A stretch of 42,944 bases of DNA from an uncultured Planctomycetota bacterium (GTDB taxonomy: Bacteria; Planctomycetota; Brocadiia; CAIUPP01). The position numbers and the translations under genes are program-made. Each line of letters begins with the position of its first letter. The first letter of the stretch is position 1. The notes below the pieces were generated by a model. It was given only the letters and a program-made list of their open reading frames with translations, ran no database searches and was not told the origin of the DNA. Positions 16,088 to 42,691 of the stretch are shown here, piece by piece. The stretch spans positions 1 through 42,944 of the forward strand of contig CAIUPP010000110.1 in assembly GCA_903901045.1 (NCBI GenBank). The letters are read 5' to 3'.

Positions 16088-16966
16088 CTACTTGGCGTCA
16101 GCCTGAACTTCCTTCAGCTTCTGCTGGAACAGCGGCTTCTGCCAATCGGCAATATCCTTCGCCGCCAATCCTGCGTTGAGTTTGGCGATGGCCTCCGCCT
16201 TCTTGCCCTGGGCGGCGTACACGTTCGCATAGGCCAGCATGAAGTTGTACTTCCAAACCCCGGTCATGGCGCTGGAATCAATCTTGCCAAGGACCGCAAG
16301 CGCCTCGTCGCATTTCTTCTGTTTGACGAGAATGTCGGACGTGGAAGTAATGCATGTCATGCGAATCCAACCATAATTGTCCTTTGACTTGGCAATGCCA
16401 TCGGCATAGACAGCCAGGGCCTGCGCATCGTCATTAAGCAGAGCGCCGTATGTTTCGCCCAGGCGCAGCCGCGCCTCGTCTCTCATGTAGCCTTCGCCAA
16501 GAGAATCGACTGCTTTCTTCAGATCGGCGACGGCGGCCTGCCCATCGCGGACGGTGATGTAGGCGATGCCACGACAATAGCCGGCGAGGCCCGCGGCCTT
16601 ATCCGGCCAGTTGGAGATATCCTCCCCCTTGAAGGCGGCAAGCAGTTCTGCGCTCTTCCGGTTGTCCAGCATAAGGCTCATCTGGACGGCTTTGGACATC
16701 TCAGGCGGGGTGATCTTCTTCGCCAGTTCGATGGCCTCGTCATACTTCTTCAGGCGGTTCGTGCAATAGGCGGCCTGCTCCAGGGCATCGCTCTTCTGCG
16801 TCTCGATGGTGGAGGCTTCGGCCATCTTGGTAAAGGCCGCCAGCGCTTCCTGATTCTTCCCGGCATTGACCAGGTCCATAGCTGCCTTCCGGTCGGCAGG
16901 GTAGTCGGCCAAGGCAGTCATTCCGAACGACAACACAACCATGAGCGCGAAAATACGCTTGAACAT
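16088..16966 (-). CDS. Secreted repeat (TPR-like) protein, module copy 1
   Basis: A 292-aa protein with a clear signal peptide (MFKRIFALMVVLSFGMTALA, cleavage after the Ala-x-Ala) and then helical repeats of the TPR/SEL type: NAGKNQEALAAFTKMAEA, LKKYDEAIELAKKI, CDEALAVLGKI, GKKAEAIAKLNAGL. The mature N-terminus begins DYPADRKAAMDL, identical to the paralogue at 40920-41792. It is probably a periplasmic scaffold that binds a partner of the DUF4838 or pseudopilin protein, but I know of no assigned function. ATG 16966 has GGAGG close upstream, and the gene starts 23 nt after DUF4838, so the two are co-translated or nearly so. Confidence 0.85.
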   Translation of the reverse strand: MFKRIFALMVVLSFGMTALADYPADRKAAMDLVNAGKNQEALAAFTKMAEASTIETQKSDALEQAAYCTNRLKKYDEAIELAKKITPPEMSKAVQMSLMLDNRKSAELLAAFKGEDISNWPDKAAGLAGYCRGIAYITVRDGQAAVADLKKAVDSLGEGYMRDEARLRLGETYGALLNDDAQALAVYADGIAKSKDNYGWIRMTCITSTSDILVKQKKCDEALAVLGKIDSSAMTGVWKYNFMLAYANVYAAQGKKAEAIAKLNAGLAAKDIADWQKPLFQQKLKEVQADAK

Positions 16967-16989
16967 AGAACGCCTCCTTGAAAAGAACT

Positions 16990-19476
16990 TTAGGGCACGA
17001 TCAGAATGCCAAATTTCAACGGGTCATGGAAGTCATATTTCCCGGTGGGAGAGAAAGCGGACAACTCCTTACTCTGGGCGCGAACCCTGTAACGGCAGAC
17101 ATTGATGTACCAGGGACGGTTGGCGTTGGGCTGCTTCCCCGCCACCCCCTTGAGCGGGTCGATATTCGCTGCCGCTTCGCCGGCGCCGGGGATCGATTCG
17201 CCGACAGCAGGGATGCGGATCTCAACCGACCAGAAGCCGTCGCCAATATATGAGGCGACCTGCGCGCCGGACATCCAGTCCATGTTGAGCCCCGTGCTTC
17301 GGTCGGCCTCCGCAATCGATCCAGCCGGGTTGATGGCGATCTGGTAGTAAGAGTGGGTCGGTGTTTCCAGGAGAATTTCGACGTTGTCGCCATCCCAAAC
17401 GCTCGAGCTTCGCGGCGCGCGGGTGGCGATCACCAGTTGTCTTGTGTCGGCATCGCGGCAGACAATGCCGACATAAAGGGCATTGTCCGACCAGGCGGCG
17501 CGGAAACTCGTGCCCCACTGCGGAGGCTGGCCTGTCGCCACCTCCTTCAAGCCATACTCGGGCAGTTCCTTCCAGAAGGGCTCGTCGAGCTTGCCGTCGA
17601 TCACAACCTCCTTGGCGTCGCGCCAAAGCGCGTTGACCTCAGGCGCATTCTCGCGCCCCTTGCCAAGCCGCTCTCGAAGGGGCGCCAATCCCTGCATATA
17701 CTTGTCCAACCGCGCAATGCGCACGCCGTAGATCGAATCGCCCGCCGCCGCCTTTGCCGAAGCAATCAATTCGAAGAATTTGTCGATCACCCTGTAGTCC
17801 TTGGTGGCGTTCATCCAGTTCGCCTCGGCATACTCGGTGAAGGACTTCATCTGCTTTGCGGCCGGGCCGTAGTATTTTTCATAGTAATCATTCAGCAGGG
17901 CGTCCACGTCCGTATTCGCGTCCCAGAGGCACGCGGCGGTGACATAAGCATTCAAGTGGTTGACCGACATCGCGTCCCAGTCCCCTTTATTGGGATCGGT
18001 TGTGACGACGTCAACATGGTTGCCCAGCGAAATCCCCTTCAGTTCCTTGAGGTCCTCTGAGATGAGGTGCGGGAAGAAGGTGGGCACGTGTACCCACGGG
18101 CTGCGGTCGTCCCAGCCGTGCAGGTAGTAGTTCCAGCTCCATAGGGTCTTCGAGGGCAGTTTCGCAAGCCAGTCGCGTTGAAGCTTACGGAAGTACTCGC
18201 GCTCGGATGGGTTGTAGAAGAGGCTGCCGCAAATGCCGACGACGGCGTTGGGGCTGAAGTTTTGGATGGCATCCGGCGGCGTCTGATATGGACAATAGGC
18301 GATGCACTGAATCCTGCGGTCGGGATGGGTCTTGTACAATTCCCGCGCTACGCGGTCAAAGTACGTCCAGACGTAATTGGAGAGGTTGCCCCGGAAGCCG
18401 TTTTGCGGCGTGTCCTTTCCCCTGCATAGCGGGCACTCGCAGAGAGCGAAACTGTCCGAAGGACCGACGCTGTACATCGGCTCATGGCAAACGTCATACG
18501 CCGCGCGAACGAACTTTACGTTCTCCTGCAAGAGTCCTTCGGAAGAGAGGCACGGTGCGCCGTAGCCTTCGAAGTTGATGGCGCGCTCTCCCTTCATCAG
18601 GGCGTAGTATTCCGGGTGAGCCTTCTTCATCTCATCGCGGCAGATCACGCCCACTATCCCATGCCCCTGACTGTGGCCCAGGATGTTGACGTCCGAGGAG
18701 AGCCCCAGCCACAACTGCCACTTGATCTTGTCGATCATGCTTTCAAGGCCGGGGCGCGCGGTGAAGAATTCCTGATAGTAAATGAGGAGGTCGCGCATCG
18801 GGAAATCCGGCTTGGAGAGAAGATCGATCTTCGGCAGCGGAATGCTTCGCATCTCCGGCACGATCAGTCCGGTTTCGTCCGGGTAGTACCAGCGGACCCC
18901 CAGCGTCTTGAGGAAGTGGTAGACGGCATTGATCGAGCCCCGGCCATCCGTGGCCCACAGGTCGAGCGACGGGCTGTAGAGCCGGTGCTCGGACATGAGG
19001 GGGTTGCCCCATTTTCCGCCTGATTTGGCGTCCCATTCCGCCATCACCCTGGCCACTTCCTCCTTGTTGCTGGGATCGCGCGGCCACGGTTCGGGCGGCA
19101 CGTAGTCCTTGTCGTCACCCATCATGGCCAGCCAGTTCTCGCCGCTGACCATGCGGAAGGCGCCGTACAGGAACCCCTCGTCGCTGAGCTTTAGGCGGTC
19201 AGTCTCGGGACTGCGGCCAACGTATATTTTCACCGGAAGATCGGCCGTCGGCTCAGTCCTGATCGGGAGGGTCGCGCCAGTCATGCGCTGGATGAAGCGC
19301 TGGAGTTCCGTCGAAGCCAGTTTGGCCGTGCGGGTGGGCTGCATGGCGATGATGATCTGGGCCTGAGGCTGGCCATCTTTCACGATATACGCATCGGCCG
19401 CCGCAGACGCTTGCAGAGCTCCCGCCGACAGGATTATGGCGACGCCAAGGTTCACGGCCGAGTTGGGACGCATCAT
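16990..19476 (-). CDS. Secreted DUF4838 glycosidase-like protein with CBM9 domain, copy 1
   Basis: An 828-aa exported protein. After a signal peptide ending ALQASAAA comes an alpha-glucuronidase-like N-terminal domain (KIYVGRSPETD, YGAFRMVSGENW), then a DUF4838 TIM-barrel region from about 190 to 560. The last ~220 residues form a CBM9-type carbohydrate-binding domain (IDGKLDEPFWKE, WDGDNVEILLE, YYQIAINPAG). A cysteine cluster CECPLC is kept in both copies and may bind metal or form disulfides. Catalytic residues of DUF4838 are not established. The frame opens at 19587, but ATG 19476 is chosen because AAAGGA stands 8 nt before it and the signal peptide follows. It sits after the pseudopilin and a strong hairpin, and likely attacks or holds the polymer outside the cytoplasm. 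Confidence 0.85.
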   Translation of the reverse strand: MMRPNSAVNLGVAIILSAGALQASAAADAYIVKDGQPQAQIIIAMQPTRTAKLASTELQRFIQRMTGATLPIRTEPTADLPVKIYVGRSPETDRLKLSDEGFLYGAFRMVSGENWLAMMGDDKDYVPPEPWPRDPSNKEEVARVMAEWDAKSGGKWGNPLMSEHRLYSPSLDLWATDGRGSINAVYHFLKTLGVRWYYPDETGLIVPEMRSIPLPKIDLLSKPDFPMRDLLIYYQEFFTARPGLESMIDKIKWQLWLGLSSDVNILGHSQGHGIVGVICRDEMKKAHPEYYALMKGERAINFEGYGAPCLSSEGLLQENVKFVRAAYDVCHEPMYSVGPSDSFALCECPLCRGKDTPQNGFRGNLSNYVWTYFDRVARELYKTHPDRRIQCIAYCPYQTPPDAIQNFSPNAVVGICGSLFYNPSEREYFRKLQRDWLAKLPSKTLWSWNYYLHGWDDRSPWVHVPTFFPHLISEDLKELKGISLGNHVDVVTTDPNKGDWDAMSVNHLNAYVTAACLWDANTDVDALLNDYYEKYYGPAAKQMKSFTEYAEANWMNATKDYRVIDKFFELIASAKAAAGDSIYGVRIARLDKYMQGLAPLRERLGKGRENAPEVNALWRDAKEVVIDGKLDEPFWKELPEYGLKEVATGQPPQWGTSFRAAWSDNALYVGIVCRDADTRQLVIATRAPRSSSVWDGDNVEILLETPTHSYYQIAINPAGSIAEADRSTGLNMDWMSGAQVASYIGDGFWSVEIRIPAVGESIPGAGEAAANIDPLKGVAGKQPNANRPWYINVCRYRVRAQSKELSAFSPTGKYDFHDPLKFGILIVP

Positions 19477-19573: not shown

Positions 19574-19613
19574 CCAGCGGCGGCCATCGCATCATCGGGA
19601 TGGCCGCCGCTGG
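19574..19613 (-). terminator. 15-bp perfect hairpin after pseudopilin gene (copy 1)
   Basis: CCAGCGGCGGCCATC (19574-19588) pairs perfectly with GATGGCCGCCGCTGG (19599-19613) round a 10-nt loop. It starts 29 nt after the pseudopilin stop on the minus strand and ends about 100 nt before the DUF4838 start. There is no U-run after it, so it may pause or protect mRNA rather than terminate. The other module copy has a different hairpin in the same place (33782-33809). Confidence 0.7.
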
Positions 19614-19642: not shown

Positions 19643-20953
19643 TTAGAACACATCCACGCCGGCGGCAGTGTCGAATCCATGCCAGACATCAGCCGCATTG
19701 TTCTGGATGACGGCGGCCGCAGAGACGCCGCTGCTGTCGCACCAGGGGCCCCATTGCCCGTAGAAGAAATTGGCGCTCAAGAGGTCGCGCGGTATTCCCC
19801 CAAGGGTCGACGGATTCGTGCCCGTGGAGTGCCAGATGATCTTCTGCTGCGGGTCGCCGAACCACTTCGCGCTCCAGTCGCCGTAGAGGACATTGTAGCC
19901 GTCGCGGTGCGCCGTGATTCCCATGCCCGCCATCGCGGAGGTGTCCGCGGCAGTCGGACTGGCCTTGTAAGGCTTCCCGAGAGCGTCCACGTAGGGGTTG
20001 ACCTGAAAAGACTTGTCGAATCCGTCCGAGACCAGCGCGCGCGCGCCAAGCTCCTTTTGCGTGCGGAAAAGCGGCGCGCCCATGTGGGCGAACTGCAAGG
20101 GGCGCGTGAAAGCCAACGCCGTCCGCTTGTCTGTGCCTTCATAAGCGGCACACCACGGCACGAACCCTCCGAGAGGAACGTCCCGGTAGGAGTAATTGGA
20201 CCAGAGTATGGTCTGGCCGTTACCCGACGACCCATACGTTTGCCACTTGCCGTACTGCATGGTCTGGGCGTCAAACCCGCCGGCCGTCTTCCAATCCGCG
20301 ATCCTGTAGCCGCCGGACTTGCTGACGTTCGCCCCCAGGGTAGGATTGATCATTCCATCGGAACTGGGACAGTAGTAGCTCTTGGCATCCGGCAGATACC
20401 CGGTCGCCAGCAGATAGCCCAGTCCGTTCGGAGCGTGCTTCAGTCCAGCACTATCCCAATTGAATCCCGTTCTCTGCCCAATGCCAATGACCCGGTAGTA
20501 AGTGTTCCAGCCTTGGCCCACTTGGGTCGGGTCATTCCCAACCGTGACGGCGGTGTCGCCGGGCCGCCCTGCATAAGGCACCGACCAATTGGTCGTCATA
20601 TCGCCGGGCGCGCCGTTGTTGGGATGGTAGATGGTCCCGGTCGTGTTGTAGGCGCAATTGCCGCTCGCCTTGGTGGTGCACTGACGGTAGCCGTTCGGGG
20701 TGGTGGTGAACCACTGGTTCGAGCCCACTCCGACCCAGGACGGGAAGTAACTGCCGTAGTCGCCGCAGTAGCTTTCCATCGCCCGGCTGAACTGACTCAG
20801 GTTATTGATGCAGGTCGTGCGGCGCGCCTTCTCCCTCGCTGCCGCAAGGGCAGGCAAAAGCATTCCGGCCAAAATAGCGATTATCGCGATTACTACGAGC
20901 AATTCGATCAGCGTAAAAGCCGAAGACAACCTTTCCCATATGCCACGTCTCAT
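19643..20953 (-). CDS. Large prepilin-type (type II pseudopilin-like) protein, copy 1
   Basis: A 436-aa protein with a prepilin N-terminus: a short basic leader, cleavage after Ala before Phe ([10 protein letters not shown]), Glu at mature position 5, then a hydrophobic helix ending at [15 protein letters not shown]. The rest is a large globular region with many Gly, Tyr and Trp, unlike small T2SS pseudopilins. Near the end is [27 protein letters not shown]-like sequence, the DUF1559/H-x9-DG style tail common in PVC bacteria. It is paralogous to 32408-33736. ATG 20953 follows AAAGGAG. It is the second gene of the operon, 40 nt after LacI. The role is probably surface or periplasmic and may be substrate capture (inference); no prepilin peptidase is in the window. 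Confidence 0.88.
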
Positions 20954-20993: not shown

Positions 20994-22007
20994 CTATCTC
21001 TTCCGCTTTACCTCCCGACGACATGGTCCGGCCGATTCCCGCTCGACCAACCGGGGCACAAGCGTCACGCTCTCGACCTCCTTTCCCGCGATGAGATCCA
21101 GAACCATCTCGACCGCCTTGGCGCCGACTTCCGCGCGCCGCGGCTGGAAAGTGGTCAACTGCGGACTCACGGCAACGGCAAACTCCGTATCGTCGAAACC
21201 GATGACGGAACATTCCTCCGGAACGCGCACGCCAAGCGCCGACAGTGTGGTCATGGCTTCAATCGCGATACGGTCGTTGCTGGCCAGGATGGCCGTGATC
21301 GTCTTGAAGAAATCTCCGCCGCGCCTCACGAACTCGCGCGTGTCACCCGGCTTCGACCCGCAGTCCAGCAGAAGCGCTTCGTCGAAAAGGCCCAGTTCCT
21401 CCATAGCTTTGCGATAACCATCCATCTTGAGCCGGTGCGTATTGGACGGATTGCGCATGGCCTCCGCATTGTCCGCACCGAGGAATGCGATTCTTCGATG
21501 CCCCCGTTCCGCCAGCCATCGCACGCCATAGGCAAATGCCTCGAAACGGTCGGTCACTACACAGGGATGGTTTGCCACGCCGATGCTTCGAATCATTACA
21601 CAGGGAATGTGATTCGGCAGAACGGCATCGCTGGTCGCATCAAGAATGATCCCGTCCACGAATCGCCCGCGCAGTTCCCGAACGGCCCGCACCTCCCCTT
21701 CCGGGTAATGGGAACACTCGCAGAACAACGGCATGTAGCCTCGCAGGGTCAGGTTCTCGGCAATCGCCTTCAGCATGGGCCCCGTGACCCCGGTGGCTTC
21801 CAAGTGCCCTGCCACTCCCACGGTGCGCGAACTTTTCCGCTGAAGGCTGCGAGCGAAGTAGTTGGGGACGAAATTGAGGCGCTCTGCCGTCTCCACAATT
21901 CTGCGGCACGTATCCGGAGAATAGCCCGGTCTGCCGCGGAGAATATCCGCGACAGTGCTGGGCGCTACACCCGCCTCGCGCGCAACGTCTGAAAGTGTGC
22001 TTGGCAA
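20994..22007 (-). CDS. LacI-family transcriptional regulator
   Basis: A 337-aa LacI regulator. The N-terminal helix-turn-helix is [19 protein letters not shown], with the hinge region [16 protein letters not shown], followed by a periplasmic-binding-like sugar domain ([33 protein letters not shown]). It starts with TTG at 22007; GGAG lies 7 nt upstream and LacI similarity begins exactly there. It is the first gene of the 21-kb minus-strand operon, so it probably controls the whole module and itself. Its promoter and a palindromic operator are described at 22031-22089. The inducer is unknown, presumably a sugar from the target glycan. Confidence 0.93.
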
Positions 22008-22030
22008 GGACGACTCCTTTGCATTCGCAG

Positions 22031-22038
22031 CGTTACGA
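22031..22038. promoter_or_regulatory. Half-operator for LacI regulator
   Basis: CGTTACGA here is an inverted copy of the half-site TCGTAACG at 22047-22054, with 8 nt between them. It lies between the main operator and the LacI start, so a second dimer could bind or the site may extend the first. It is predicted from repeats only. Confidence 0.45.
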
Positions 22039-22046: not shown

Positions 22047-22060
22047 TCGTAACGTTACGA
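22047..22060. promoter_or_regulatory. Predicted LacI operator (14-bp perfect palindrome)
   Basis: TCGTAACGTTACGA is a perfect 14-bp palindrome with the central CpG and TAACGTTA core typical of LacI-family operators. It lies immediately after the -10 box, over the expected start of transcription, so binding would block initiation. Autoregulation of the LacI gene and the genes behind it is the obvious reading. Confidence 0.8.
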
Positions 22061-22089
22061 ATTATAAGTCGCAAACCGTCCATTGTCAA
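22061..22089 (-). promoter_or_regulatory. Sigma70 promoter of LacI–pseudopilin operon
   Basis: On the minus strand TTGACA (22089-22084) and TATAAT (22066-22061) are separated by exactly 17 nt: both boxes are perfect consensus. Transcription would start near 22053, inside the palindromic operator, about 45 nt before the TTG start. This is by far the strongest promoter in the window and could drive the full operon. Confidence 0.88.
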
Positions 22090-22314: not shown

Positions 22315-23133
22315 TCAAGTCAGTCCCGCAAATCGCGAGAGAAGTTTCTGCGCGTTCCGGTGTAGAATCCGGTGGCGATCTTCGTCCGTAACGTCGGCGG
22401 ACAGGATGGCACCGATACCACAGTGGGGGGCGAACCACGGCAAGTCGGTCCCGAAGAGCATGCGCTCCGACAACCCCGCTTCGACGAACTTCTCAAGCAC
22501 TCCCCGGTTATTGTCCAGCAACGCACACAGTTCGAGATACACGTTGGGAAACTCTCTGGCGACTGCAATGGCGTCGTCCCAAGCGCCATGCAGGCTATGA
22601 CCCAGCAAGAACGCGATGTTCGGATACCGCCGGGCCACTGTTCGGCATGCGTCCGTTCCGTTAAACAGGCTGGCTCCCCACGTGTGCGCGAGGACCAGAA
22701 GTTTTCGCTCGTCGGCGAACTTCAGCGCCGGCTCGTAGGCGGCAGCGGTCATGGGGACCGTGTGGTAATCCGACAGCAGTTTGACCCCCACGAACACGTC
22801 CGTGTGCTTCTCGAACATCGCGATGTCCCGTGCGACAAATTCCGGATAGTGGGGGTTGATGGCAACGTAGGCCCGAAGCCGATCAGGGAATTTTCGAACG
22901 GCTTCGATGCTTGTCGCGTTTCCGACCTCCGGGGCGAAGAGCGCGTCATGCGGCGTAAAGCAGAGCAGCCGGACGCCCGCCCGATCCATCGCTTGAATCA
23001 TCCCTTCCGACGACGGACGCGGAAACCATATTCCGGAGAACGGTCCCATGTGTCCGTGCATGTCGTATACCGGGCAGTCGTCCGCGCGCCCCTTCTCCCA
23101 AAACGCTCGCGCCAACGACGTGTCGTTAATCAT
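22315..23133 (-). CDS. Amidohydrolase-2 family hydrolase (complete active site)
   Basis: A 272-aa amidohydrolase 2 family protein. Its metal ligands are complete: Asp24-x-His26-x-His28 in YDMHGH, His in LAHTWG, His in LLGHSLHG and Asp in FGTDLPW. The open frame runs far upstream, but ATG 23133 is chosen because it overlaps the stop of the preceding gene in ATGA (23130-23133), a classic coupled start. The partner upstream is a related protein that has lost the same ligands. It is the last gene of its operon. The reaction is unknown; a lactone or amide of a sugar acid is possible. Confidence 0.85.
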   Translation of the reverse strand: MINDTSLARAFWEKGRADDCPVYDMHGHMGPFSGIWFPRPSSEGMIQAMDRAGVRLLCFTPHDALFAPEVGNATSIEAVRKFPDRLRAYVAINPHYPEFVARDIAMFEKHTDVFVGVKLLSDYHTVPMTAAAYEPALKFADERKLLVLAHTWGASLFNGTDACRTVARRYPNIAFLLGHSLHGAWDDAIAVAREFPNVYLELCALLDNNRGVLEKFVEAGLSERMLFGTDLPWFAPHCGIGAILSADVTDEDRHRILHRNAQKLLSRFAGLT

Positions 23134-23909: not shown

Positions 23910-23987
23910 CTGGCCAGCCTCCTATGAACTTGGCAAACGAACCATCAGCGCCAGGGAGCGTGCGATAGTGACCCGCGCCGCGCCACG

Positions 23988-25340: not shown

Positions 25341-25460
25341 TCTGAATCCTCTGCAATCCAACAAGAACAATGCCTTCCGGCAGGCTCCCCCGGCGTCCCT
25401 GCAAGCAGAGCCATAGCCAAGCATCGTCGAACCGAGTGCCCCGAGTCAGGCGGACCCCGC

Positions 25461-31135: not shown

Positions 31136-31165
31136 TTGACAAAGCCATCGCGGCGACGGTATACT
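31136..31165 (+). promoter_or_regulatory. Predicted sigma70 promoter of GntR-hybrid regulator module
   Basis: TTGACA (31136-31141) and TATACT (31160-31165) are 18 nt apart. Transcription would start near 31172, about 30 nt before the GTG start. It overlaps a possible operator at 31170-31183. Confidence 0.78.
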
Positions 31166-31201: not shown

Positions 31202-32320
31202 GTGAGCGGTCCCGTGCCTGAAGCAGTTGTGTCAAAACATCGTCAGATTGAACAAGCGCTGCGTGGCCTGATTGAGAGCGGTCGCCTGCAGCCGGGGGAG
31301 AGTCTGCCCTCGGAGCTCAAGTTGGCAGCGGAGCATGGAGTCAGCGCGGGCACGGTGCGGCGCGCCCTATCCACGCTCATTCACGAAGGCATTCTTAAAC
31401 CCCGGCGGCGCTCCGGCGTTTACGTCCAGGAGAAGCCGCGCCAGAAAATCATCGGGGTGATGGTGCCCAACGTGGACAACCCGGATCATGCCAGGTTGGT
31501 TGAGGCCGTCACGCAGGGTGCTGCGGAGCGCGGTTACTCCCCCGTTCTGTTCTGTGCCAGCAAGGACTGGCGGAACTATCAGAATGACAAGATGCCCCAA
31601 GTCCATTTCGTTGAACGGTTGGCTGCCATGGCCCCCATGGGAATCATCGCTTGTCCCACCCACGTGCCCGATGAAGAGCTCACGCGCGCGCGGATGCGGG
31701 AATTGAAGATACCCTATGTCATCACCAACGACTATTGGACCGACTGCCGCCGCGACCGTCACGTGTGCGCCGATCAGGAAGCGGCCGTACGCATGGCCGT
31801 GGATCTTCTCGCCGAGCTCGGGCATCGCAAAATGACGATGTGGATGGTGCCGGGAGACGAGTGGCCCGCGGCCGGCAAGGCCTTCCTTGAACAGGTGAAC
31901 TATCGCAGTGGCTTCGGCCAGGTGAACCTTTCGGACGATCCCGCGACCTGGGTGGCGCAGTTCCTGGCGCCGGAGGGACGAGAGAAACCTACCGCTGTCA
32001 TCGTCCCCTACTATGAGCAGGCGCAGCATCTGCTTGGCGTACTGGAATCGGCGGGCGTACGCGTGCCGGAGGATTTATCGCTGGTCTGCCTCGGTGGGCT
32101 GCCCGTCCCCAAACCGCACGAGGTTGATCTCACGGCCACGATCAGCCCTCTGAGAGAAGTCGCCGCGCGCGCGTTGAGCATCCTCATCGACGACACGGAA
32201 GAGTCCACTTGCCACTACCGGTACATGCCGACGCTGCACGTGGGGGCGACGACGGCCCCGGCGGCGCCGGATAAGAGTCCGGCGGGCACAAAGCCGGTGC
32301 TTGTTTCGTTGCAGCGATAG
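31202..32320 (+). CDS. GntR/LacI hybrid (AraR-type) transcriptional regulator
   Basis: A 372-aa regulator that joins a GntR winged helix (about 10-75: IEQALRGLIESGRLQPGESLPSE, HGVSAGTVRRALSTL, GILKPRRRSGVYV) to a LacI-type periplasmic-binding sugar domain (KIIGVMVPNVDNPDHARLVEAV, GVRVPEDLSLVCLGG). This is the arrangement of AraR. The start is taken as GTG 31202; GTG 31214 is an alternative and neither has a strong ribosome site. It is the first gene of the plus-strand module and divergent from the dehydrogenase operon. It plays the part that LacI plays in the other module copy, but from a different family. Inducer unknown. Confidence 0.9.
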   Translation: MSGPVPEAVVSKHRQIEQALRGLIESGRLQPGESLPSELKLAAEHGVSAGTVRRALSTLIHEGILKPRRRSGVYVQEKPRQKIIGVMVPNVDNPDHARLVEAVTQGAAERGYSPVLFCASKDWRNYQNDKMPQVHFVERLAAMAPMGIIACPTHVPDEELTRARMRELKIPYVITNDYWTDCRRDRHVCADQEAAVRMAVDLLAELGHRKMTMWMVPGDEWPAAGKAFLEQVNYRSGFGQVNLSDDPATWVAQFLAPEGREKPTAVIVPYYEQAQHLLGVLESAGVRVPEDLSLVCLGGLPVPKPHEVDLTATISPLREVAARALSILIDDTEESTCHYRYMPTLHVGATTAPAAPDKSPAGTKPVLVSLQR

Positions 32321-32407: not shown

Positions 32408-33736
32408 ATGGCGACTGCGTTGCGGCGCTTCTGCTCGGCGTTCACGTTGATCGAGTTGTTGGTGGTTATCGCGATCATAGCCATTTTGGCCGGGATGCTG
32501 CTGCCGGCTCTGGCTGCGGCGAGAGAGAAGGCGCGGCGGGCAAGTTGCATCAACAATCTGACCCAGTTCAGCCGGGCGCTGGAAAGTTACTGCGGAGACT
32601 ACGGCGGCTATCTCCCCTCCTGGACCGGCATGGGAGCGGGGGCCGGATCAAGCTGGTTCCCCAACTATCCCGGAGCTTATCGGCAATGCGCCTCGTACGT
32701 GCCGGGAGGCGCCTGTTCCTTCAGCACGAACTCGTTCAGTCACAGTTGGGCCAACTACTCAGGCACCGAGGGGTATGACGCGTGCAATTACTGGGTATCC
32801 ATGTACACGGGGAAAGGCACGGATACCGCCCTGAGGGTCTCCACCACCTCCAACAGCCTCTACCGGACCATCGGTATCGGCGTGAAGACCGCTGCCGGCA
32901 CGTACCGGTTTGCCAGCGGCCTCAGCACCGCCCCTAATGGAATCGGCTACCTCCTGACGTGCGGGTACCTTGCCGATGCCAAGACCTTCTACTGCCCCAG
33001 TTCGGAAGGGATGCGTGCCGACATCGGCACCACGCCCGCCCTGTCGTCCAGCTACGAGGCCAACAGCGCCCGGATCACCGGCGGCTTCCGTTTGAGCGAT
33101 TGGAAGAACGCGGGTGGATTCGACAGCAAGACGATGCTCTATGGCAAGTGGGATACCCTGGGGGCCGACAACGCCTATGTGAACCTGATCTCCTCGCATT
33201 ACGCTTACCGGTGCGTCCCGCTGAGCCTTCAGGGCCCCTGGTGCGCCGGCCTCGAAGGGAAGGACTCGAGGACGACGGTGTCGTTCACGAAGCCGGTGCT
33301 CTACGCCCGGTTCGGAGTGCCGCTTTTCCGGACGCAGAAGGAACTGGGGTCGCGAGCGCTGATTGTGGACACGTTCTCCAAGGGGTGGTGGGATGACGCT
33401 TTAGGAAAACGCATATACAACACCGAGACACTGGCCCAGTCCATGGCGCATCCGGGCATGGGCATTACCGGACACCGCGACGGCTACAATGTCCTCTACG
33501 GCGACTGGAGCGCCAAGTGGTGGGGCGACCCGCAGCAGAAGCTCATCTGGCACGGTCAGGGCCCCGGAGATTCCGGCGTGGCATCGGGCGGGTACGCCTA
33601 TCCGATCAATATCCTGGCATCCAACTTCTACTACAACTTCCCCTTTGGGAAGACCAATCCGACCGACGGCAATTGGATCTACAGCAGCCTGAAGGTCTGG
33701 CACGATTTCGACACCTCTGCCGGACTCGATCAATAG
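32408..33736 (+). CDS. Large prepilin-type (type II pseudopilin-like) protein, copy 2
   Basis: A 442-aa protein with a short leader, cleavage before Phe ([10 protein letters not shown]), Glu5 and the hydrophobic helix [15 protein letters not shown]. It shares the N-terminus closely with copy 1 (19643-20953) and the tail [23 protein letters not shown], while the middle differs much more. ATG 32408 follows GGGAAAGGAGG, the strongest ribosome site in the window, fitting high expression. It is followed by a strong hairpin at 33782-33809, then by DUF4838. It is probably an exported, filament- or membrane-anchored protein; a role in substrate binding is inferred from its position and variable middle. 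Confidence 0.88.
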
Positions 33737-33781: not shown

Positions 33782-33809
33782 GCATGGCGCGCCTTCGGGC
33801 GCGCCATGC
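33782..33809 (+). terminator. 12-bp perfect hairpin with TTCG loop after pseudopilin gene (copy 2)
   Basis: GCATGGCGCGCC (33782-33793) pairs perfectly with GGCGCGCCATGC (33798-33809) round TTCG, giving the extra-stable C(UUCG)G tetraloop. It begins 45 nt after the pseudopilin stop and 65 nt before the DUF4838 start. No U-run follows. It stands exactly where copy 1 has a different hairpin, so the position is kept though the sequence is not. Confidence 0.72.
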
Positions 33810-33874: not shown

Positions 33875-36325
33875 ATGAAGCGAACGAGCGGGATGCTGTG
33901 GGCCGCAATGCTGGGGATGTTCTGCCTGCCGACAGCGTTCGGCCAGTCTTTCATCATCCGGGAGTCGAAGCCCTGCGCGGAGATTATCATCGCCGAGCAG
34001 CCGCCGCGCATGGTGAAACTTGCAGCGGAGGACTTGCAGACTTACATCGAGCAGATCACCGGAGCGAAGCTGCCAATCACGACCGCGCCAGGTCAGGATG
34101 TGCCGGTTCAGATCTATGTGGGGAAGAGCCCTTTCACCGACAAACTCGGGGTCACCGACGTGGGGCTGAAGTACGGCGCCTTCCGCATGGTGTCGGGCGA
34201 CAAATATCTGGTGCTGCTCGGCCACGACAGCGACTTTACGCCCATGCAGCCATACCTGCGCAACTACGGGGATATTCCCCGACTGATGGCGGAATGGGAC
34301 AAGGTCACCGGAGAGAAATGGGGATTCCCGCTTTCCAATCTCTACAAGCAATACAACGGCGACCTGAAAATATGGGAGAAGGATGAGCGCGGTTCCTTCA
34401 ATGCCGTCTGCGAGTTCCTGCGCATGCAGGGAGTGCGCTGGTATCTGCCGGGGAAGCTGGGCGAGATTGTTCCGAAGAAGGGGACGATCGAACTCCCCCG
34501 CATAGACAAGACGGTCCGGCCGGACTTCGCGCTACGCTATCCGTATCAGGCTTTCCACATGTTCGCCCACGAACAGGCGACGCGGGACGAGGTGCTGTGG
34601 CAATTGCGGCTGGGGCTGAATCAGGCGCCGGACCTCATCGGCGACTTTGAGATGTCTCTGGGCCACGGAATCACCCCAGTCCACGCCCGCGATGAGGTGA
34701 AGCAAGCCCATCCGGAGTACTATGCCCTGTTCAATGGCAAGCGCGACACAACCACTTACGGCGAGGGCCGGCCCTGCCTTTCCTCCCAGGGACTGTTCGA
34801 GGAAAACGTGAAGTACGTCCGCAAGATGTTCGACCTTTACGACGCGCCGATGGTCTCCGTCATGCCGCAGGACGGTTACAGCAGCGCCTGCGAGTGCCCC
34901 TTGTGCGCGGGCAAATCCACGCCGGAGCGCGGCTGGAGCGGACAGATTTCCGACTACGTCTGGGACTACGTCAACCGCGTGGCCATCGAGGTGTACAAAA
35001 CGCACCCGAACAAGAAGATCTCCTGCCTGGCCTACGGCACTTACGCGCTGCCCCCGACGAAGATCGCCAAGCTCAGCCCCAACCTGGCCGTCGGCATCGC
35101 ACAGGCCCGGATCCATTTCCATGACCCCGAGAAGCAACGGCAGTTCGAGCAACTCCGCAAGGCCTGGCTCGACAAGATGCCGGGGAATGACAAGCAGTTG
35201 TGGACCTGGGAGTATTACCTGTACGGGAGGCCCGGCGTGCCCACGGTCTATATGCCCGTGGTATTCCCACATACCATCGCCCGCGACCTGCGCTCGCTCA
35301 AGGGCGTTTCAATGGGCGACTTCATCGAGGTCTATCGTGATCAGAAGGTGGGCATAAGCGACCTGGCTACGAGCCACCTGAACATTTACGTGACTTCCCG
35401 GCTCTGGTGGGACGCCGACCAGGATATCGACGCATTACTCGAGGAGTATTACACCCTCTATTACGGTCCAGCCCGGGAGGAGATGAAGGCGTTCCTCCAA
35501 TACGCCGAAGCCAACTTCATGGACATGGGAAAGAAAGCGGAGAAAATTCAGAAGGTCTTCGACCTGTTGGGGAAGGCGCAGCAGAAGGCGCCGCCGGATT
35601 CCGTCTACGCGCAGCGGATTGCGCTGATCGCCGACTACATCAAACCCATGAAAGACCTGCAGGCACAACTGGGCAAGGGCCGCGAGAATGTTCCCGAGGC
35701 GCGGGCCATCATCCACGACGGCGCGAAGCTAACGATAGATGGCCGCCTGGATGAAGAGGCCTGGCAAGGGCTGGCCGCCTACGGTTTGAGTGAACTGCAG
35801 ACCGGGCGAGTCCCGGTGTTCAAGACCTCGTTCAAGGCTTTGTGGATCGGCGACTCGCTTTACCTCGGCATCACGTGCGAAGACGTGGACACGAAACGCC
35901 TGGATCCGCAGGCAAAGAAGAGGGACGACATGAGCGTGTTCAACGGCGACTGCGTGGAAATTGAACTCGAGACGCAGAACCACTCCTACTACCAGTTTGC
36001 GGTCAGCCCCGCCGGAACGCTGGTGGACCTCGACCGGGAGGATGGTCTCAACCCGCTCTGGACATCCGGCGCCGAGGTGGCCACTCAGATCGGTGAGAAA
36101 TCCTGGACCATTGAGATTCGCATCCCCGTGGCGGCGCCCAATCAGACGGAGATCGACGCGCTCAACGGCGTGTCCGGCCGCAAGCCGACGGAAGCTTATC
36201 CCTGGTACGTCAACGTCTGCCGGCAGCGCATCCGCGAGAATGACGCGGAACTCTCCGCCTTCTCCCCCACCGGCAAGGAGGATTTCCACGTGCTTTCGAA
36301 GTTTGCCAAATTGTACGCGTGGTGA
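33875..36325 (+). CDS. Secreted DUF4838 glycosidase-like protein with CBM9 domain, copy 2
   Basis: An 816-aa exported protein with signal peptide (MLWAAMLGMFCLPTAFG), alpha-glucuronidase-like N-terminal domain (QIYVGKSPFTD, YGAFRMVSGDKY), DUF4838 region and a C-terminal CBM9 domain (IDGRLDEEAWQG, FNGDCVEIELE, YYQFAVSPAG). The CECPLC cysteine motif and WTWEYYLYG-type segments are shared with copy 1. The frame opens at 33827, but ATG 33875 begins the signal peptide. It follows the pseudopilin and the TTCG hairpin. It is likely the polymer-facing enzyme or binding protein of this module. The reaction is not known. Confidence 0.86.
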   Translation: MKRTSGMLWAAMLGMFCLPTAFGQSFIIRESKPCAEIIIAEQPPRMVKLAAEDLQTYIEQITGAKLPITTAPGQDVPVQIYVGKSPFTDKLGVTDVGLKYGAFRMVSGDKYLVLLGHDSDFTPMQPYLRNYGDIPRLMAEWDKVTGEKWGFPLSNLYKQYNGDLKIWEKDERGSFNAVCEFLRMQGVRWYLPGKLGEIVPKKGTIELPRIDKTVRPDFALRYPYQAFHMFAHEQATRDEVLWQLRLGLNQAPDLIGDFEMSLGHGITPVHARDEVKQAHPEYYALFNGKRDTTTYGEGRPCLSSQGLFEENVKYVRKMFDLYDAPMVSVMPQDGYSSACECPLCAGKSTPERGWSGQISDYVWDYVNRVAIEVYKTHPNKKISCLAYGTYALPPTKIAKLSPNLAVGIAQARIHFHDPEKQRQFEQLRKAWLDKMPGNDKQLWTWEYYLYGRPGVPTVYMPVVFPHTIARDLRSLKGVSMGDFIEVYRDQKVGISDLATSHLNIYVTSRLWWDADQDIDALLEEYYTLYYGPAREEMKAFLQYAEANFMDMGKKAEKIQKVFDLLGKAQQKAPPDSVYAQRIALIADYIKPMKDLQAQLGKGRENVPEARAIIHDGAKLTIDGRLDEEAWQGLAAYGLSELQTGRVPVFKTSFKALWIGDSLYLGITCEDVDTKRLDPQAKKRDDMSVFNGDCVEIELETQNHSYYQFAVSPAGTLVDLDREDGLNPLWTSGAEVATQIGEKSWTIEIRIPVAAPNQTEIDALNGVSGRKPTEAYPWYVNVCRQRIRENDAELSAFSPTGKEDFHVLSKFAKLYAW

Positions 36326-36938: not shown

Positions 36939-38051
36939 GTGACAGTATGCATCGAGGTGGGTGAGCACCAGATCGTCACCCGCCTGGGTCTGCGCGAGCC
37001 GCAGCTTCTCAATCTGCACTCCGGCGACCTGCTGCTGACCTACCACGTCCAGGCGGATATGCATTTCTCCGAGCGGCATGGACTGCGGTCGAAAGACGGC
37101 GGACGGACTTGGCAGCCGGAACCGCGGCGTGGGCACCGGGAACAGGCCATCGGGCAGGGCGCAAATGGCCTGGTGCTTGCCCCCGATATTCACACTTTCG
37201 AGCGCCGGGCGGGCGAATTCTGCGGGTCATATTATCGCTCCGATGACGGCGGCGTTACGTTCACCGGCCCGCACGACCTGACGCTCTTCGTAAACAGCGT
37301 CGCCGCCCCCGAGTACCCCACGCCGGAACACATTCCGCCCGAAGGTCATTCCTTGCGCAAGTTCTATCAACCGCTCCCGGCCTACTACGGTCCCATCGTG
37401 CAGCGGAGTTCCCGCCGGATGGGGCCGATCTTCTGGCGCTACCTGGTGGAACACCGCGGGCGCTGGCTGGCGCCCATGCAGTGCAAGTTCCATGGCGACC
37501 AGAAGAACCGTTCGATCCTGGCCTCCTCCGATGATGGCGGGCGGACGTGGCGCTACCTCAGCACGATCGCCTATGTCTACGACCGGTTCGACGGCGACGG
37601 CTACTGCGAGCCGGCGCTGGTTGAAACGCCCGATGGCGGTCTGCTGTGCGTGATGCGCTGGGGCGGCGGCGCGCCGCTGGGCCAGTGCCGCTCGCTCGAC
37701 GGCGGGGCGACCTGGAGCGAACCGGAGAAGCTTGCCGGCCACGGCGTGGACCCGGACCTTGTTCTCATGTCCAATGGCGTGCTCGCCTGCACCTACGGAC
37801 GGCCCGACCTGCACATCATGTTCAGTGAAGAGGGTTGCGGCTATTCCTGGGGATACCGCACGAAGATCGGCGACTGGCAGAGTTCCTGCTACATGGCCAT
37901 CGCCGAAGTGAGCCCCGGCGAACTGCTGCTGGTGTATGATCACTGCGAGAGCAATGAGGAGGGGTCCGGCCGCGACCCTGAGAAATGCAGTATCGGCGGC
38001 GCCAGGATCAAGGTCCAAAGGGAATCGCGTGAACACGAACGTCTGGCTTGA
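36939..38051 (+). CDS. BNR/Asp-box sialidase-family protein
   Basis: A 370-aa six-bladed propeller-type protein. Four Asp-boxes are visible: SKDGGRTW (51-58), SDDGGVTF (101-108), SDDGGRTW (197-204) and SLDGGATW (252-259). LREPQLL near the start resembles the sialidase RIP motif and YCEPALVE could hold the catalytic Glu. It may remove terminal sialic acid or a related residue, or belong to a non-sialidase propeller subgroup. No signal peptide. GTG 36939 follows AAGGAG. Its last 23 nt overlap the start of the esterase gene, so the two are coupled. Confidence 0.75.
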   Translation: MTVCIEVGEHQIVTRLGLREPQLLNLHSGDLLLTYHVQADMHFSERHGLRSKDGGRTWQPEPRRGHREQAIGQGANGLVLAPDIHTFERRAGEFCGSYYRSDDGGVTFTGPHDLTLFVNSVAAPEYPTPEHIPPEGHSLRKFYQPLPAYYGPIVQRSSRRMGPIFWRYLVEHRGRWLAPMQCKFHGDQKNRSILASSDDGGRTWRYLSTIAYVYDRFDGDGYCEPALVETPDGGLLCVMRWGGGAPLGQCRSLDGGATWSEPEKLAGHGVDPDLVLMSNGVLACTYGRPDLHIMFSEEGCGYSWGYRTKIGDWQSSCYMAIAEVSPGELLLVYDHCESNEEGSGRDPEKCSIGGARIKVQRESREHERLA

Positions 38052-40030
38052 ACCGGGCGGGCACCTCCTGAAGGAAGCGCTGCTTCAGGAAGCGCGGACG
38101 CTGAACCGGTTGCACCGGCCGCCCACACGGCTTGATGACTGGCTCGCGTATCGAGAGCGGCTGCGCGAGCGTCTCATGGCCGCGGCCGGCACATTTCCCG
38201 ACCCGCCCGCGCTCGACCTGCGCGAGCATGGGACGGTCCGGATGGACGGCTATCGAATTGTCAAACTGACCTACCAGAGCCGCCCCGGCCTGCGCGTGAC
38301 CGCCAACCTTTTCGTTCCCGACGCGCCGGGCCGCCATCCGGCGGTGCTCAATGTCCACGGACACTTCCCGCAGGGAAAGGTCGCCGTCGAGGTTGCCGCC
38401 CGCGGACACACGCTGGCCCCGGAAGGCTTCGTCGTACTCAGCGTCGACGCCATTGGTGCGGGGGAGCGGGGACCGGCGCACGGGAAACCGGGCGCAAGCC
38501 TCCTGTCCGTGGGTGAGACGCTCCTGGGCATGCAGGTCTATGACAACATGCGCGCAATCGATCTCCTGCAGTCCCTCGACTGCGTGGACCCCGGGCTTAT
38601 CGGCGTCACCGGCGCCAGCGGCGGCGGCAATCAGACGATGTGGATCTCCGCGCTGGACCCCCGCGTCAAGGCCGCCGTACCGGTAGTTTCCGTGGGCACA
38701 TTCGAAGCATACGTCACGCATGGCAACTGCTGGTGCGAGACGCTCCCCGACGGACTGAACATTGCTGAGGAATGGGGAGTCCTGGGGCTGATCGCGCCGA
38801 ATCCGCTCCTGGTGCTAACGGCGCACCGCGAGCAGATCGACGCCTTCGTCGAGGCGGAAATGCTGCGCGCCTACGCCGATGCGCGACGAATATACTCCCT
38901 GTACGGCGCGGAGGAGCGGTTGGCCTATCAGATACTGGACCTTCCGCACGGTTACTTCCCCGAGATGCGGCGCCACATGCTCGGGTGGTTCAAGCACTGG
39001 CTCCAGGGCCAGGGCCCCCCCCTGCCGCGGACATTGCCAAAGGATCCCGCGCTGCCGGAATCCGCGCTGAAGTGCTTTCCCGGGAAGTCCCGCCCGAAGG
39101 ATATCAAGCCGCTGATCGAATACGTGTCCTTCCGGTCAAAGGCGCTCAAGAAGGTGTTCCTGCATCCGGGCAAACTTGATCGCAACGACAAGAGGCGGGA
39201 GTTGGCCCGCCTGCTCCGGCGGCGCGATGGCCCGCACCACGTTCGTCTGAGCGAGGTTGTCTCCGGCGAAGAGGAGGGACGGCGCTATCAGAAGTTCACC
39301 GTCGAGTCGGAGCCGGGAGTTCTTCTCCCCCTGCCTCCTCATTCAATCGGGAAAGCGCGCCTCGTCGGTTGTCATTGCCGCTCATCCGGACGGGAAAGAG
39401 GCCTGCTTTCGGGAGGCGGCGGCGAAAGAAGTCCTGACGAAGGGCAAGAGCCTTTGCCTGGTGGACCTGCGGAACACTGGCGAGACCCGCTGGGCGCCCC
39501 CAGACGATGAGATGGACCATTTCACGGCCCGAAGCGCTCTCTGGCTGGGACGGACCATGGTGGGAGACTGGACAAAAGATCTGTCGGCCGTTCGCGCGGC
39601 ATTGAGCAAGATAACGCCCTCCACGCCTCTGGAACTGCTGGGCTTTGGCGGAACCGTCGCAGCGGAGGCCAATGACCCTGCCGCGCTGGCGCGCGGAGCG
39701 TTCTTCGGCTTGGGCGATGCGGCCATCGCCGCACTGGCCGCCGCGACTCTTGACAATCGTTTTGCGGGCGTCACGGTCGTAGGGCTGCTGTCGACCTATG
39801 TTCTGGACGGGGCCATGCCGGCCTATCGCTATGGCGTCCTGGTCCCAGGCATCCTGCGCTGGGGCGACATCAGTCTCATCGCAGCGCTTGCCCATTGTCC
39901 GGTGCGAGTCGAATCGCTGGTCCATCCGGCGGGCCGACCGCTCTCATCGAAGGAACGAGCCGCATGGGTTCGAGAGGTGCGACAACTGTCTCGCCGGCTG
40001 ACTCAAGAACGAAAGGACGATATCCATTGA
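38029..40030 (+). pseudogene. Tandem alpha/beta-hydrolase (acetyl xylan esterase-like), copy 2, frameshifted
   Basis: Begins at GTG 38029 (RBS AAAGGGA, 23 nt inside the sialidase gene) and matches copy 1 from NTNVW onward. The first alpha/beta-hydrolase unit is intact, with GASGGGNQT as the nucleophile elbow. After VESEPGVLLP the frame shifts by +1 at a run of five C (39327-39331), where the reading frame would pass to CLLIQSGKRASSVVIAA; the rest, through AHPDGKEA and LVDLRNTGET, continues in the new frame to TGA 40028-40030. In the original frame translation would stop at 39510, giving a 493-aa protein with the active unit plus about 60 foreign residues. It may be a true mutation, an assembly error or +1 frameshifting at CCC-C. 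The lost part is the non-catalytic second unit. Confidence 0.75.
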
Positions 40031-40869
40031 ACCAGTCCATCATGGTGGTAGGCGCGCACGCAGACGACATCGAGGTCGCTGTCGGCGGCACGTGCCTCAA
40101 GTATCGCGCGGTGGGCTATGAGATCGTCTACGTCATGGCCACCAACAACATGTCCGGTGGAGTCAGCGAACTGCTCAACGACGGGACGGTCCGAACCACC
40201 ATGGAAACGACCCTCCCCATGATGGCGCGGCGCAAGCGTGAGTGCAATGATGCGGCCCGCGCGCTGGGGACCACGCCGATCCACCTTGACCACCCCCAGC
40301 GTCATTACACTGGGCCTGACGGAAAGACGCCTCTGGAATTGCGCTATGGCTGCGTCTTGCCCGATGGAGTGCCGCCGAACGCGCCCACGATCTTGACAGC
40401 CTGCGAGGATCCGGCCAGCATCGACCGACTGGTACGGCTCATCCTGGAGAAGGACCCGGAGGTGGTCTTGACATTCGGCGTCAGCCAGATGAACATCGAG
40501 CACTTTGCCACTTCCCTCCTGGCTACGCAGAGCTATTGGCAAGCTGTGGAGAATGGCTTCCGCGGCGCTCTGCTGCACTGGCGCGATGCGCACACGCGCC
40601 ATGGCGAGTTCAACTGCCGGTGGGAGACGTTCGTGGACTACACCCCCTACCTGGACCGGAAGATGAAGCTCATCGGCCTGCACCGCTGTCAGATGCCCAA
40701 TGCCCACCTGCCGGAGTTTGGCCATCGGTTGCTGGGGGTCCGCTGGGGGCAAGCATGCGGCTGCGGCGCCGCCGAAGTCTTCACCTGGGTCCGGCATGCC
40801 GATTATCGTGACACTCAGGGGATCGTCTACCCACCCCTGACGTTGGAACTGATCCAGAACACAAAATAG
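40027..40869 (+). CDS. PIG-L/LmbE-family deacetylase
   Basis: A 280-aa PIG-L family protein. Members are zinc-dependent N-deacetylases of GlcNAc-type sugars. GAHADDIEVAVGG is the family's AHPDDE motif with Ala in place of Pro, which is common; the His and Asp metal ligands are kept. Near the end TWVRHADYRDTQG and GQACGCGAAEVF fit the usual C-terminus. The TTG at 40027 is taken as start because AAAGGA lies about 9 nt before it and TTGA overlaps the esterase stop; ATG 40042 is an alternative. It fits deacetylation of amino sugars, in keeping with the GH20-like and sialidase genes. Confidence 0.87.
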   Translation: MNQSIMVVGAHADDIEVAVGGTCLKYRAVGYEIVYVMATNNMSGGVSELLNDGTVRTTMETTLPMMARRKRECNDAARALGTTPIHLDHPQRHYTGPDGKTPLELRYGCVLPDGVPPNAPTILTACEDPASIDRLVRLILEKDPEVVLTFGVSQMNIEHFATSLLATQSYWQAVENGFRGALLHWRDAHTRHGEFNCRWETFVDYTPYLDRKMKLIGLHRCQMPNAHLPEFGHRLLGVRWGQACGCGAAEVFTWVRHADYRDTQGIVYPPLTLELIQNTK

Positions 40870-40919: not shown

Positions 40920-41792
40920 ATGAAGAAACAGTGCCTGGCCGTCCTGGCGATTACGTTGTTTGCGGCAAGCGCCCTCGCGGATTATCCGGCGGACCGCAAG
41001 GCCGCGATGGACCTGAGGAATGCCGGCAAGACGGAGGAGGCGATGGCTGCCTTCGTCAAGCTGGCCGGAAGCGAAGTCACGGATGTCCAGAAGTCCGACG
41101 CGCTGGATCAAGCGGTTCGATGCGCACTCCGCTTGAGTCAGAATGACCGGGCCATGGAACTGGCGCTCCAGATTCCCATCAAGCCCGCCTCGATCACGGC
41201 CCAGATGACGGTGATGGATCAGACATATAAGTCGCTGGAGATCGTCACGAAGTTCAAAGAGGAAAACATCGACGCTTGGCCGGATGTCTACAAGGGGGAT
41301 GGGTTTCTTCGTCGCGGATACGCCGCTCTCATTTCCAAGGATGCCGCAATGGCCGAGGCGGACCTGAAGAAAGCCGTTGAATACCTTACGAATGATGATG
41401 CGAAGGGGGATGCGGAAAACCACCTGGGGGATACGTACCGCACGCTTCTCAACGACAATGCCAAGGCTATGGAAACCTATCGCCTGGTGTATAAGACTCG
41501 CAACGAGTACAAGCAGGCCTATGCCGCAATTGCCGTAGCCGGCATTCTGACAAGCCAGAAGGAATTCGATGCGGCCATCCAGGAGTTGCAGAAGGTCCCG
41601 CTGGCGAAGATGGACACGCCGCAGTGGCGTGGCACCATGCTGATCGCCTACGGAAACACCTATGCCGCCCAGGGAAAAAAGCCCGAGGCGATTGCAAAGT
41701 ACCAGGAGGCGCTGCAAGTCAAGGGCCTTCCTGCCTATCACAAGACAACATGCGAGAAGGCGCTTCAGGAACTTCAGTCAGGTGGAAAATAG
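40920..41792 (+). CDS. Secreted repeat (TPR-like) protein, module copy 2
   Basis: A 290-aa protein with a signal peptide (MKKQCLAVLAITLFAASALA) followed by the same DYPADRKAAMDL start as the copy at 16088-16966. The rest is helical repeats (NAGKTEEAMAAFVKLA, AKAMETYRLVYKTRN, GKKPEAIAKYQEAL). Two gaps in homology lie in the middle. ATG 40920 follows AAGGAG with an ideal spacing. In this module it sits after the PIG-L gene rather than straight after DUF4838, so gene order was shuffled, though the pair persists. Function unknown, probably periplasmic scaffold. Confidence 0.86.
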   Translation: MKKQCLAVLAITLFAASALADYPADRKAAMDLRNAGKTEEAMAAFVKLAGSEVTDVQKSDALDQAVRCALRLSQNDRAMELALQIPIKPASITAQMTVMDQTYKSLEIVTKFKEENIDAWPDVYKGDGFLRRGYAALISKDAAMAEADLKKAVEYLTNDDAKGDAENHLGDTYRTLLNDNAKAMETYRLVYKTRNEYKQAYAAIAVAGILTSQKEFDAAIQELQKVPLAKMDTPQWRGTMLIAYGNTYAAQGKKPEAIAKYQEALQVKGLPAYHKTTCEKALQELQSGGK

Positions 41793-41794
41793 AG

Positions 41795-42691
41795 ATGTTC
41801 ATTGACATTCATGCCCATGCGTATCGAAGGCCTGTCCCGTTCGTAGTCCAATTCTGCACCGCCGAGCAGGTGCTCAAGCGCTACGATGAAGCCGGGATCG
41901 AGCAGGGAGTGCTCCTGCCGATCGTCAGCCCGGAAATCTATCTGCCCCAGGCTAACGAGGACATCCTGGAGATGGCCCAGCAGCACCCGAAGCGGTTCAT
42001 CCCCTTCTGCAACATCGATCCGCGCGCTCTCACCAACTCATGGGATGCTCCCCTCGACCGGCTCCTGCGCTACTACCGCGACCAAGGCTGCAAAGGTCTC
42101 GGGGAAGTGATGCTCAACGTTCCCATGATGGATCCCTTCGTCCAGAACCTCTTCAAGCATGCCGAGGATGTGGGCCTGCCGGTAACCTTCGACGGCTCCG
42201 ACCGCGTGGGCGGAGATTTCGGACTCTATGACGACCCCGGATTGCCGCAATTGGAGCACACCCTCCAGCGGTTTCCCAAACTCATCCTCATTGCCCATGG
42301 GCCGGTCTTCTGGGCGGAACTTGGGCGTCTCGAGACGCCCGCTCAACGTAAGTCGGTCTTCCGCCCCAATGGCGAGCAGGTGGGGTGGAATCCTCCGAGC
42401 GGGCCGATCCGCGAGGAGGGGGTCGCACCCAAGCTCTTCCGGCGCTATCCTAATCTCTATGGCGAGTTATCGGATGCTTTTCGCGCGCTGAGTCGCGATT
42501 CGGAGTACGGTCCCAAGTTTCTTGCCGAATTTCAGGACCGCCTCTGCTTTGGCACGGACATCTGCCATTTCGAGCAGCCTTTCCGCCTGCGGCAACTGCT
42601 TCTGGACTGGCGCGACAGCGGCAGGATCAGCGAAACGGTCTTCCGAAAGGTGGCCCGCGAGAATACGATGAAGCTACTTGGCCTGACCTAA
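41795..42691 (+). CDS. Amidohydrolase-2 family metal-dependent hydrolase (module copy 2)
   Basis: A 298-aa amidohydrolase 2 protein with Asp4-x-His6-x-His8 (FIDIHAH), His in LIAHGP and Asp in CFGTDICHF. The metal site is complete. The frame opens at 41624, but ATG 41795 is chosen, two bases after the stop of the repeat protein, which marks them as co-translated. It is the counterpart of 13031-13843 in the other copy, though only family-level similar. It may hydrolyse a lactone or amide in the same pathway. Confidence 0.87.
   Translation: MFIDIHAHAYRRPVPFVVQFCTAEQVLKRYDEAGIEQGVLLPIVSPEIYLPQANEDILEMAQQHPKRFIPFCNIDPRALTNSWDAPLDRLLRYYRDQGCKGLGEVMLNVPMMDPFVQNLFKHAEDVGLPVTFDGSDRVGGDFGLYDDPGLPQLEHTLQRFPKLILIAHGPVFWAELGRLETPAQRKSVFRPNGEQVGWNPPSGPIREEGVAPKLFRRYPNLYGELSDAFRALSRDSEYGPKFLAEFQDRLCFGTDICHFEQPFRLRQLLLDWRDSGRISETVFRKVARENTMKLLGLT

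Follow-up and report, generated by a model that had tools for sequence, protein, structure and literature searches.

Two paralogous gene sets on a planctomycete contig as possible members of a genome-wide series of regulator-pilin cassettes

The window analysed here, a stretch of 42,944 nucleotides that makes up an entire contig of a draft planctomycete genome (4.77 Mb, 154 contigs, 94% complete), carries two gene sets of similar composition on opposite strands, and it raises the question of whether these are two copies of one module and what they may do for the cell. An earlier note had described them as a double module of seven elements (regulator, pilin, hairpin, DUF4838-CBM9 protein, repeat protein, tandem esterase and amidohydrolase). 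Genes were called with a codon-usage caller trained on the same genome, and domains were assigned with Pfam. The minus-strand set was made up of LacI, pilin, DUF4838-CBM9, TPR, esterase and amidohydrolase genes, and the plus-strand set of GntR-PBP, pilin, DUF4838-CBM9, GNAT, BNR, frameshifted esterase, PIG-L, TPR and amidohydrolase genes. The relevant features are:

20994..22007, minus: LacI-family regulator, LacI HTH + Peripla_BP_3 (Pfam)
19643..20953, minus: large type IV pilin-like protein, copy 1, N_methyl + SBP_bac_10/DUF1559
16990..19476, minus: exported DUF4838 + CBM9 protein, copy 1, putatively with a GH115/GH67-like barrel, as in the homologous, modelled copy 2
16088..16966, minus: exported TPR protein (DYPADRKAAMD), copy 1, partner of the DUF4838-CBM9 protein
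13999..15954, minus: two-domain acetyl-xylan-esterase-like hydrolase, intact copy
13031..13843, minus: amidohydrolase (PF04909), having only the superfamily in common with that at 41795-42691
31229..32320 (open frame from 31202), plus: regulator with GntR HTH + Peripla_BP_3
32408..33736, plus: large type IV pilin-like protein, copy 2
33875..36325, plus: exported DUF4838 + CBM9 protein, copy 2
36939..38051, plus: BNR-repeat (sialidase-like) protein, cargo (Pfam)
38029..40030, plus: esterase copy 2, frameshift near 39330
40027..40869, plus: PIG-L family deacetylase, cargo (Pfam)
40920..41792, plus: exported TPR protein, copy 2
41795..42691, plus: amidohydrolase PF04909 (Pfam)

Sequence comparison confirmed that four of the proposed pairs are paralogous: the pilins (50% identity, 451 columns), the DUF4838-CBM9 proteins (47% over 811 columns), the TPR repeat proteins (42% over 293) and the tandem esterases (67%; 70% and then 55% across the frameshift). 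The hairpin was also found in both sets, in each case as a perfect stem between the pilin stop and the DUF4838 start. However, the amidohydrolases matched over just 100 residues at 26% identity, and the two regulators showed a weak match of their effector domains (23%, E 2e-5). Since these similarities are at the superfamily level only, both pairings are class coincidences, and the seven-element description holds for the four gene pairs and the hairpin but not for the other two elements. Similarly, the order regulator-pilin-hairpin-DUF4838 was common to both sets but did not extend beyond DUF4838, where the TPR and esterase genes were permuted and GNAT, BNR and PIG-L genes were inserted in the plus-strand set. 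The frameshift in the plus-strand esterase (39257-39510, near 39330) may reflect either a genuine lesion or a fault of the assembly. The window harbors one more paralogous pair, two GH4-family genes on one strand (2438-3790 and 23988-25340).

Upstream of both regulator-pilin operons we found strong sigma-70 promoters, the one of the LacI operon being followed by a candidate operator, and behind both pilins the above-mentioned stem-loops:

22061..22089, minus: promoter TTGACA-17-TATAAT (12/12) of the LacI-pilin operon
22047..22060, minus: candidate LacI operator, the perfect 14-bp palindrome TCGTAACGTTACGA, directly after the -10
22025..22038, minus: second, imperfect operator copy, TCGTAACGCTGCGA, 8 bp further on
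31136..31165, plus: promoter TTGACA-18-TATACT (11/12) of the GntR-pilin operon
31088-31117, minus: divergent promoter, back to back with the GntR promoter
19574..19613, minus: stem-loop after the pilin stop, perfect 15 bp, 10-nt loop, no T-run
33782..33809, plus: stem-loop after the pilin stop, perfect 12 bp, 4-nt loop, no T-run

The LacI regulator scored over the cut-offs of both PF00356 and PF13377. Between the divergent promoter and the LacI promoter lies a minus-strand gene run (22315-30987) with genes for a GH4 protein, two amidohydrolases, a subtilase-like protein, an HpcH aldolase, a melibiase-like protein, a 3-keto-disaccharide hydrolase and a GFO/IDH/MocA protein, possibly an oxidised-sugar pathway.

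The promoters and stem-loops proved to be general features of the pilin loci of this genome. Promoters matching at least 10/12 positions were present upstream of 20 of 29 pilin-adjacent regulators, while random stretches of this genome gave 18 such cases among 169 genes (p 1e-10). Perfect stems of 9 bp or more stood behind 28 of 52 pilins; in randomly drawn same-strand gaps they numbered 14 in 126 (p 5e-9), and shuffles led us to expect 0.2. In a second genus, such a stem was found behind only 3 of 13 pilins. The stem-loops vary in sequence and are thus not one copied element, no Rfam family was detected in the window, and the absence of a T-run after both window stem-loops led us to discard the idea that they are intrinsic terminators. 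Palindromes with arms of at least 6 were not enriched genome-wide upstream of regulators (9/29 versus 57/247), so that the candidate operator is to be taken as a local finding only. Considering the strong, presumably repressible promoter together with the stem-loop behind the pilin, these data suggest that the pilin may be made in excess over the enzymes.

To ascertain how far this arrangement extends, we combined family searches of the source genome with fetched surroundings and neighbourhood windows of 1.5 kb. When one of the window pilins was used as the query of a translated search, 108 stretches matched; they correspond to about 57 different large pilins and some twenty smaller pilin-like proteins. 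Among 52 genes upstream of pilins, Pfam identified Peripla_BP_3 in 29, GntR in 17, LacI in 10, FCD in 4 and ROK in 2. The genome encodes 44 Peripla_BP_3 regulators over the cut-off, and for 29 of them a large pilin followed within 1.5 kb downstream, where 0.8 would be expected (binomial p ~1e-39). About half of the approximately 57 large pilins are directly behind a sugar-type regulator of their own, and roughly one third have no recognisable regulator as a neighbour. This coupling was also found in a draft genome of a second genus of the same family (G294), with 18 of 27 regulators upstream of a pilin (0.45 expected, p 3.6e-26). At some loci (L080, L102 and L144) a tandem pair of large pilins follows a single regulator.

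We also inspected seven more distant genomes, five reached through Lentisphaerae-type or other contigs and two further ones of the phylum, which contain related, mostly shorter pilins (1 to 122 matches each). A sugar regulator beside the pilin was found in none of about 25 upstream neighbourhoods (1.5 kb flanks only), Pfam disclosing there single GntR-FCD and AraC matches. The genomes G303, G306 and G048 display 91 to 122 pilin N-terminus matches each, in frames of mostly ~200-370 aa, and the pilins sampled in them are apparently without adjacent sugar regulators.

The two exported partners of the window pilins showed a different distribution. The genome carries ten copies of DUF4838 and two of the TPR protein, and among the contigs bearing DUF4838 relatives (labelled Lentisphaerae, Planctomycetes or Verrucomicrobia), a TPR relative adjoins DUF4838 on ten others (L046, L047, L048, L054, L055, L057, L058, L059, L060 and L061). 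Seven further genomes of the phylum (L124-L130) have DUF4838-CBM9 followed by TPR as a single reading frame. Since just two of the ~57 pilin loci have the TPR protein, it is a partner of DUF4838 and not of the pilin. Thus, the exported proteins do co-occur elsewhere as far as TPR and DUF4838 are concerned, but the pilin is an independent partner, and the seven-part module was rejected as one unit. It is instead composed of two units, a regulator-pilin cassette and a DUF4838-CBM9 plus TPR cargo pair. The cassette almost certainly has, as judged from sequence, the layout of a strong promoter, a sugar-type regulator, a large DUF1559-type pilin, often a stem-loop, and then enzymes; these are by prediction both exported and cytoplasmic, and vary between loci. 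On the basis of this layout, it is well supported that glycan loci have pilins of their own, which are probably inducible by sugars. A search of openly licensed papers, with subscription journals mostly outside its scope, found no report of regulator-pilin coupling; expanded N_methyl + SBP_bac_10 families were already known.

We then asked what the exported cargo may be. The AlphaFold model of DUF4838-CBM9 copy 2 (pLDDT 87) was compared with known folds by Foldseek and VIA-align. The C-terminal domain matched CBM9 (Z 19-21), and residues 22-602 matched a GH115 alpha-glucuronidase (Z 18, rmsd 4.6, 455 residues), followed by GH84 and GH67 (Z 13.8 for GH67). The barrel fold of the GH115/GH67 group is thus present in the model, and invariant Asp and Glu residues occur in DUF4838, whose sequence yielded no match in a search against the PDB. 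The likeness to GH115/GH67 alpha-glucuronidases is one of modelled fold alone, as the identity is ~12% and, unlike them, the DUF4838 protein ends in a CBM9 domain. With its modelled GH115/GH67-like barrel plus CBM9, the protein looks less like a simple binding protein than like an enzyme; a role in capture alone is not supported, and we believe that it is a candidate for an exported GH115/GH67-like glycosidase.

Both window pilins have a prepilin N-terminus (A^FTLIE, with Glu at +5) and score over the cut-off of N_methyl. The cut-off of TIGR02532 was likewise exceeded, and a sequence search of the PDB gave matches to geopilin, GspG and PilA. A motif previously read as H-x9-DG is in fact H-x9-DW. 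An alignment of 55 paralogues showed a near-invariant N-terminal helix (residues 21-40 98% conserved), one further conserved motif and DPQQ near the C-terminus, along with highly variable stretches around 81-160, 201-220, 241-300, 321-345 and 385-425. At the sequence level, this pattern suggests variable loops set on a constant framework. The AlphaFold model of the pilin, obtained from five sequences, had a pLDDT of 30, too low to show a lectin-like fold of the head. We know of no established role for the large DUF1559-type pilin families. Pilus machinery is present in the genome, with PilC/GspF, a PilQ-like secretin, several PilB/GspE-like ATPases and several PilT-family ATPases over the NCBIfam curated cut-off, and we consider it rather probable, judging from these sequences, that the large pilins are assembled into pili.

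With regard to uptake, the statement that the window contains no visible transporter proved correct, as no gene has three or more predicted TM segments and no transporter was found by Pfam. SusD (PF07980) was absent from the source genome (G000; draft, 94% complete) and TonB-dependent barrels (PF00593) from this and the second-genus genome, so that by both components the source genome falls outside the SusC/D-type PULs. The genome has 13 ABC permease matches. Proteins with at least 6 predicted TM segments, among them five MFS and a few other transporters, made up 16 of 605 genes at pilin loci versus 17 of 314 in random stretches, a mild shortage (2.6% versus 5.4%, p 0.04).

Considering that the pilins lie behind sugar regulators and that uptake receptors were not found, the cell may use its pilins to capture glycans, each pilin being specific for a substrate. 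We believe that the most plausible explanation, to which we give a probability of about 0.45, is that the two sets in the window belong to a series of probably sugar-induced pilin cassettes that extends through the whole genome. Each cassette would be derepressed by a sugar, and the stem-loop would hold the pilin mRNA above that of the enzymes behind it. A common PilB/PilC/PilQ/PilT machine would then assemble the induced pilin by way of the near-invariant helix at the pilin's N-terminus, and the variable loops of the large head would bind the inducing glycan at the cell surface, where it would be kept near the exported enzymes or drawn to the cell. The exported part in both window cassettes is DUF4838-CBM9 with its TPR partner. 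Capture of glycans by the large pilins is itself a tentative proposal. Some help for it comes from excerpts of the literature on planctomycetes, in which pili-like fibres of Planctopirus limnophila and Gemmata obscuriglobus are described as carrying gold-labelled dextran (PMC5394234) and type IV pili of Fimbriiglobus as enhancing adhesion to chitin (cited in PMC11131199). We are more hesitant about a new kind of glycan acquisition in which one sugar sensor controls one pilin per polysaccharide, the common machine extends this pilin, PilT retracts it, and its variable head draws the polysaccharide to the cell in place of SusC/SusD. If true, the cell would possess some fifty interchangeable pili. 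The suggestion that the pilin stands in for SusC/D agrees with the pilin behind a regulator, the variable cargo and the lack of SusD and TonB barrels; the single module in which it had been framed is not supported. The regulator-pilin link bears on how bacteria lacking SusC/SusD seize large polysaccharides: it predicts an inducer and a ligand for each pilin and makes the question testable locus by locus.

One alternative is that the large pilins are dedicated pseudopilins of type II secretion, each acting as a piston or adaptor for its own locus, whose enzymes it would export or display without binding glycans. The gene behind the pilin was signal-peptide-like, by a crude predictor, in 26 of 50 cases versus 12 of 50 length-matched genes (LamG, CBM9, GH and lyase domains being represented), several of the ATPases are of the GspE/PilB type, and GspG was the best NCBIfam match of both window pilins, although at 36 bits it remained far below the equivalog cut-off of TIGR01710, the major pseudopilin (88.85). 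We consider this unlikely, because the very strong promoters and the stem-loops suggest a subunit made in abundance, because cytoplasmic enzymes seem to be numerous at the window loci, and because GspG does not typically have a large variable head. Enrichment of LamG itself behind the pilins was tried and dropped (11/51 versus 4/50 length-matched genes of the same loci, not clearly above). An equally improbable alternative is that the pilin-type signal serves as an inner-membrane anchor only, the head being a periplasmic oligosaccharide-binding protein for transport or sensing. This is what the name of the SBP_bac_10 family implies, and both window pilins exceed the PF07596 cut-off (35.3 and 35.1 bits versus 23.3), with a match that covers just the first 46-52 of 268 profile positions; in addition, the excerpt of PMC8567305 places the SBP_bac_10 + N_methyl proteins of Tuwongella mostly in fractions S2 and S3. 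However, the near-invariant N-terminal helix with Glu5 is a need of filament assembly, and permeases are few near the pilins. Finally, a catabolic cluster that was merely duplicated locally, its copies having no capture function in common, would account for four gene pairs at 42-67% identity on one contig and for a TPR protein found nowhere else in the genome, but it is most improbable as a full explanation, which is contradicted by the recurrence of regulator-pilin coupling in a second genus and, within the source genome, at dozens of loci that are not linked.

Compared with known systems, the series of pilin cassettes proposed here resembles the Bacteroidota SusC/SusD PULs in having a regulator beside exported and cytoplasmic carbohydrate enzymes and a single surface component per locus, with dozens of loci per genome. 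It differs from them in that SusD and the TonB barrel are lacking, a pilin occupies that place, and the regulators are LacI or GntR-PBP. The DUF1559 family of the Planctomycetales has both Pfam domains and dozens of copies around the genome; the excerpt of PMC8567305 reports its expansion (N_methyl + SBP_bac_10), fractionation and even spread, and the same excerpt carries no report of coupling to sugar regulators. As for the fibres of P. limnophila and G. obscuriglobus, the excerpted account in PMC5394234 neither names the fibre protein nor describes a series of pilins and regulators for each substrate, but these fibres are, like those that the cassettes would encode, pilus-like and polysaccharide-carrying, capture in our case being what the layout leads us to infer.
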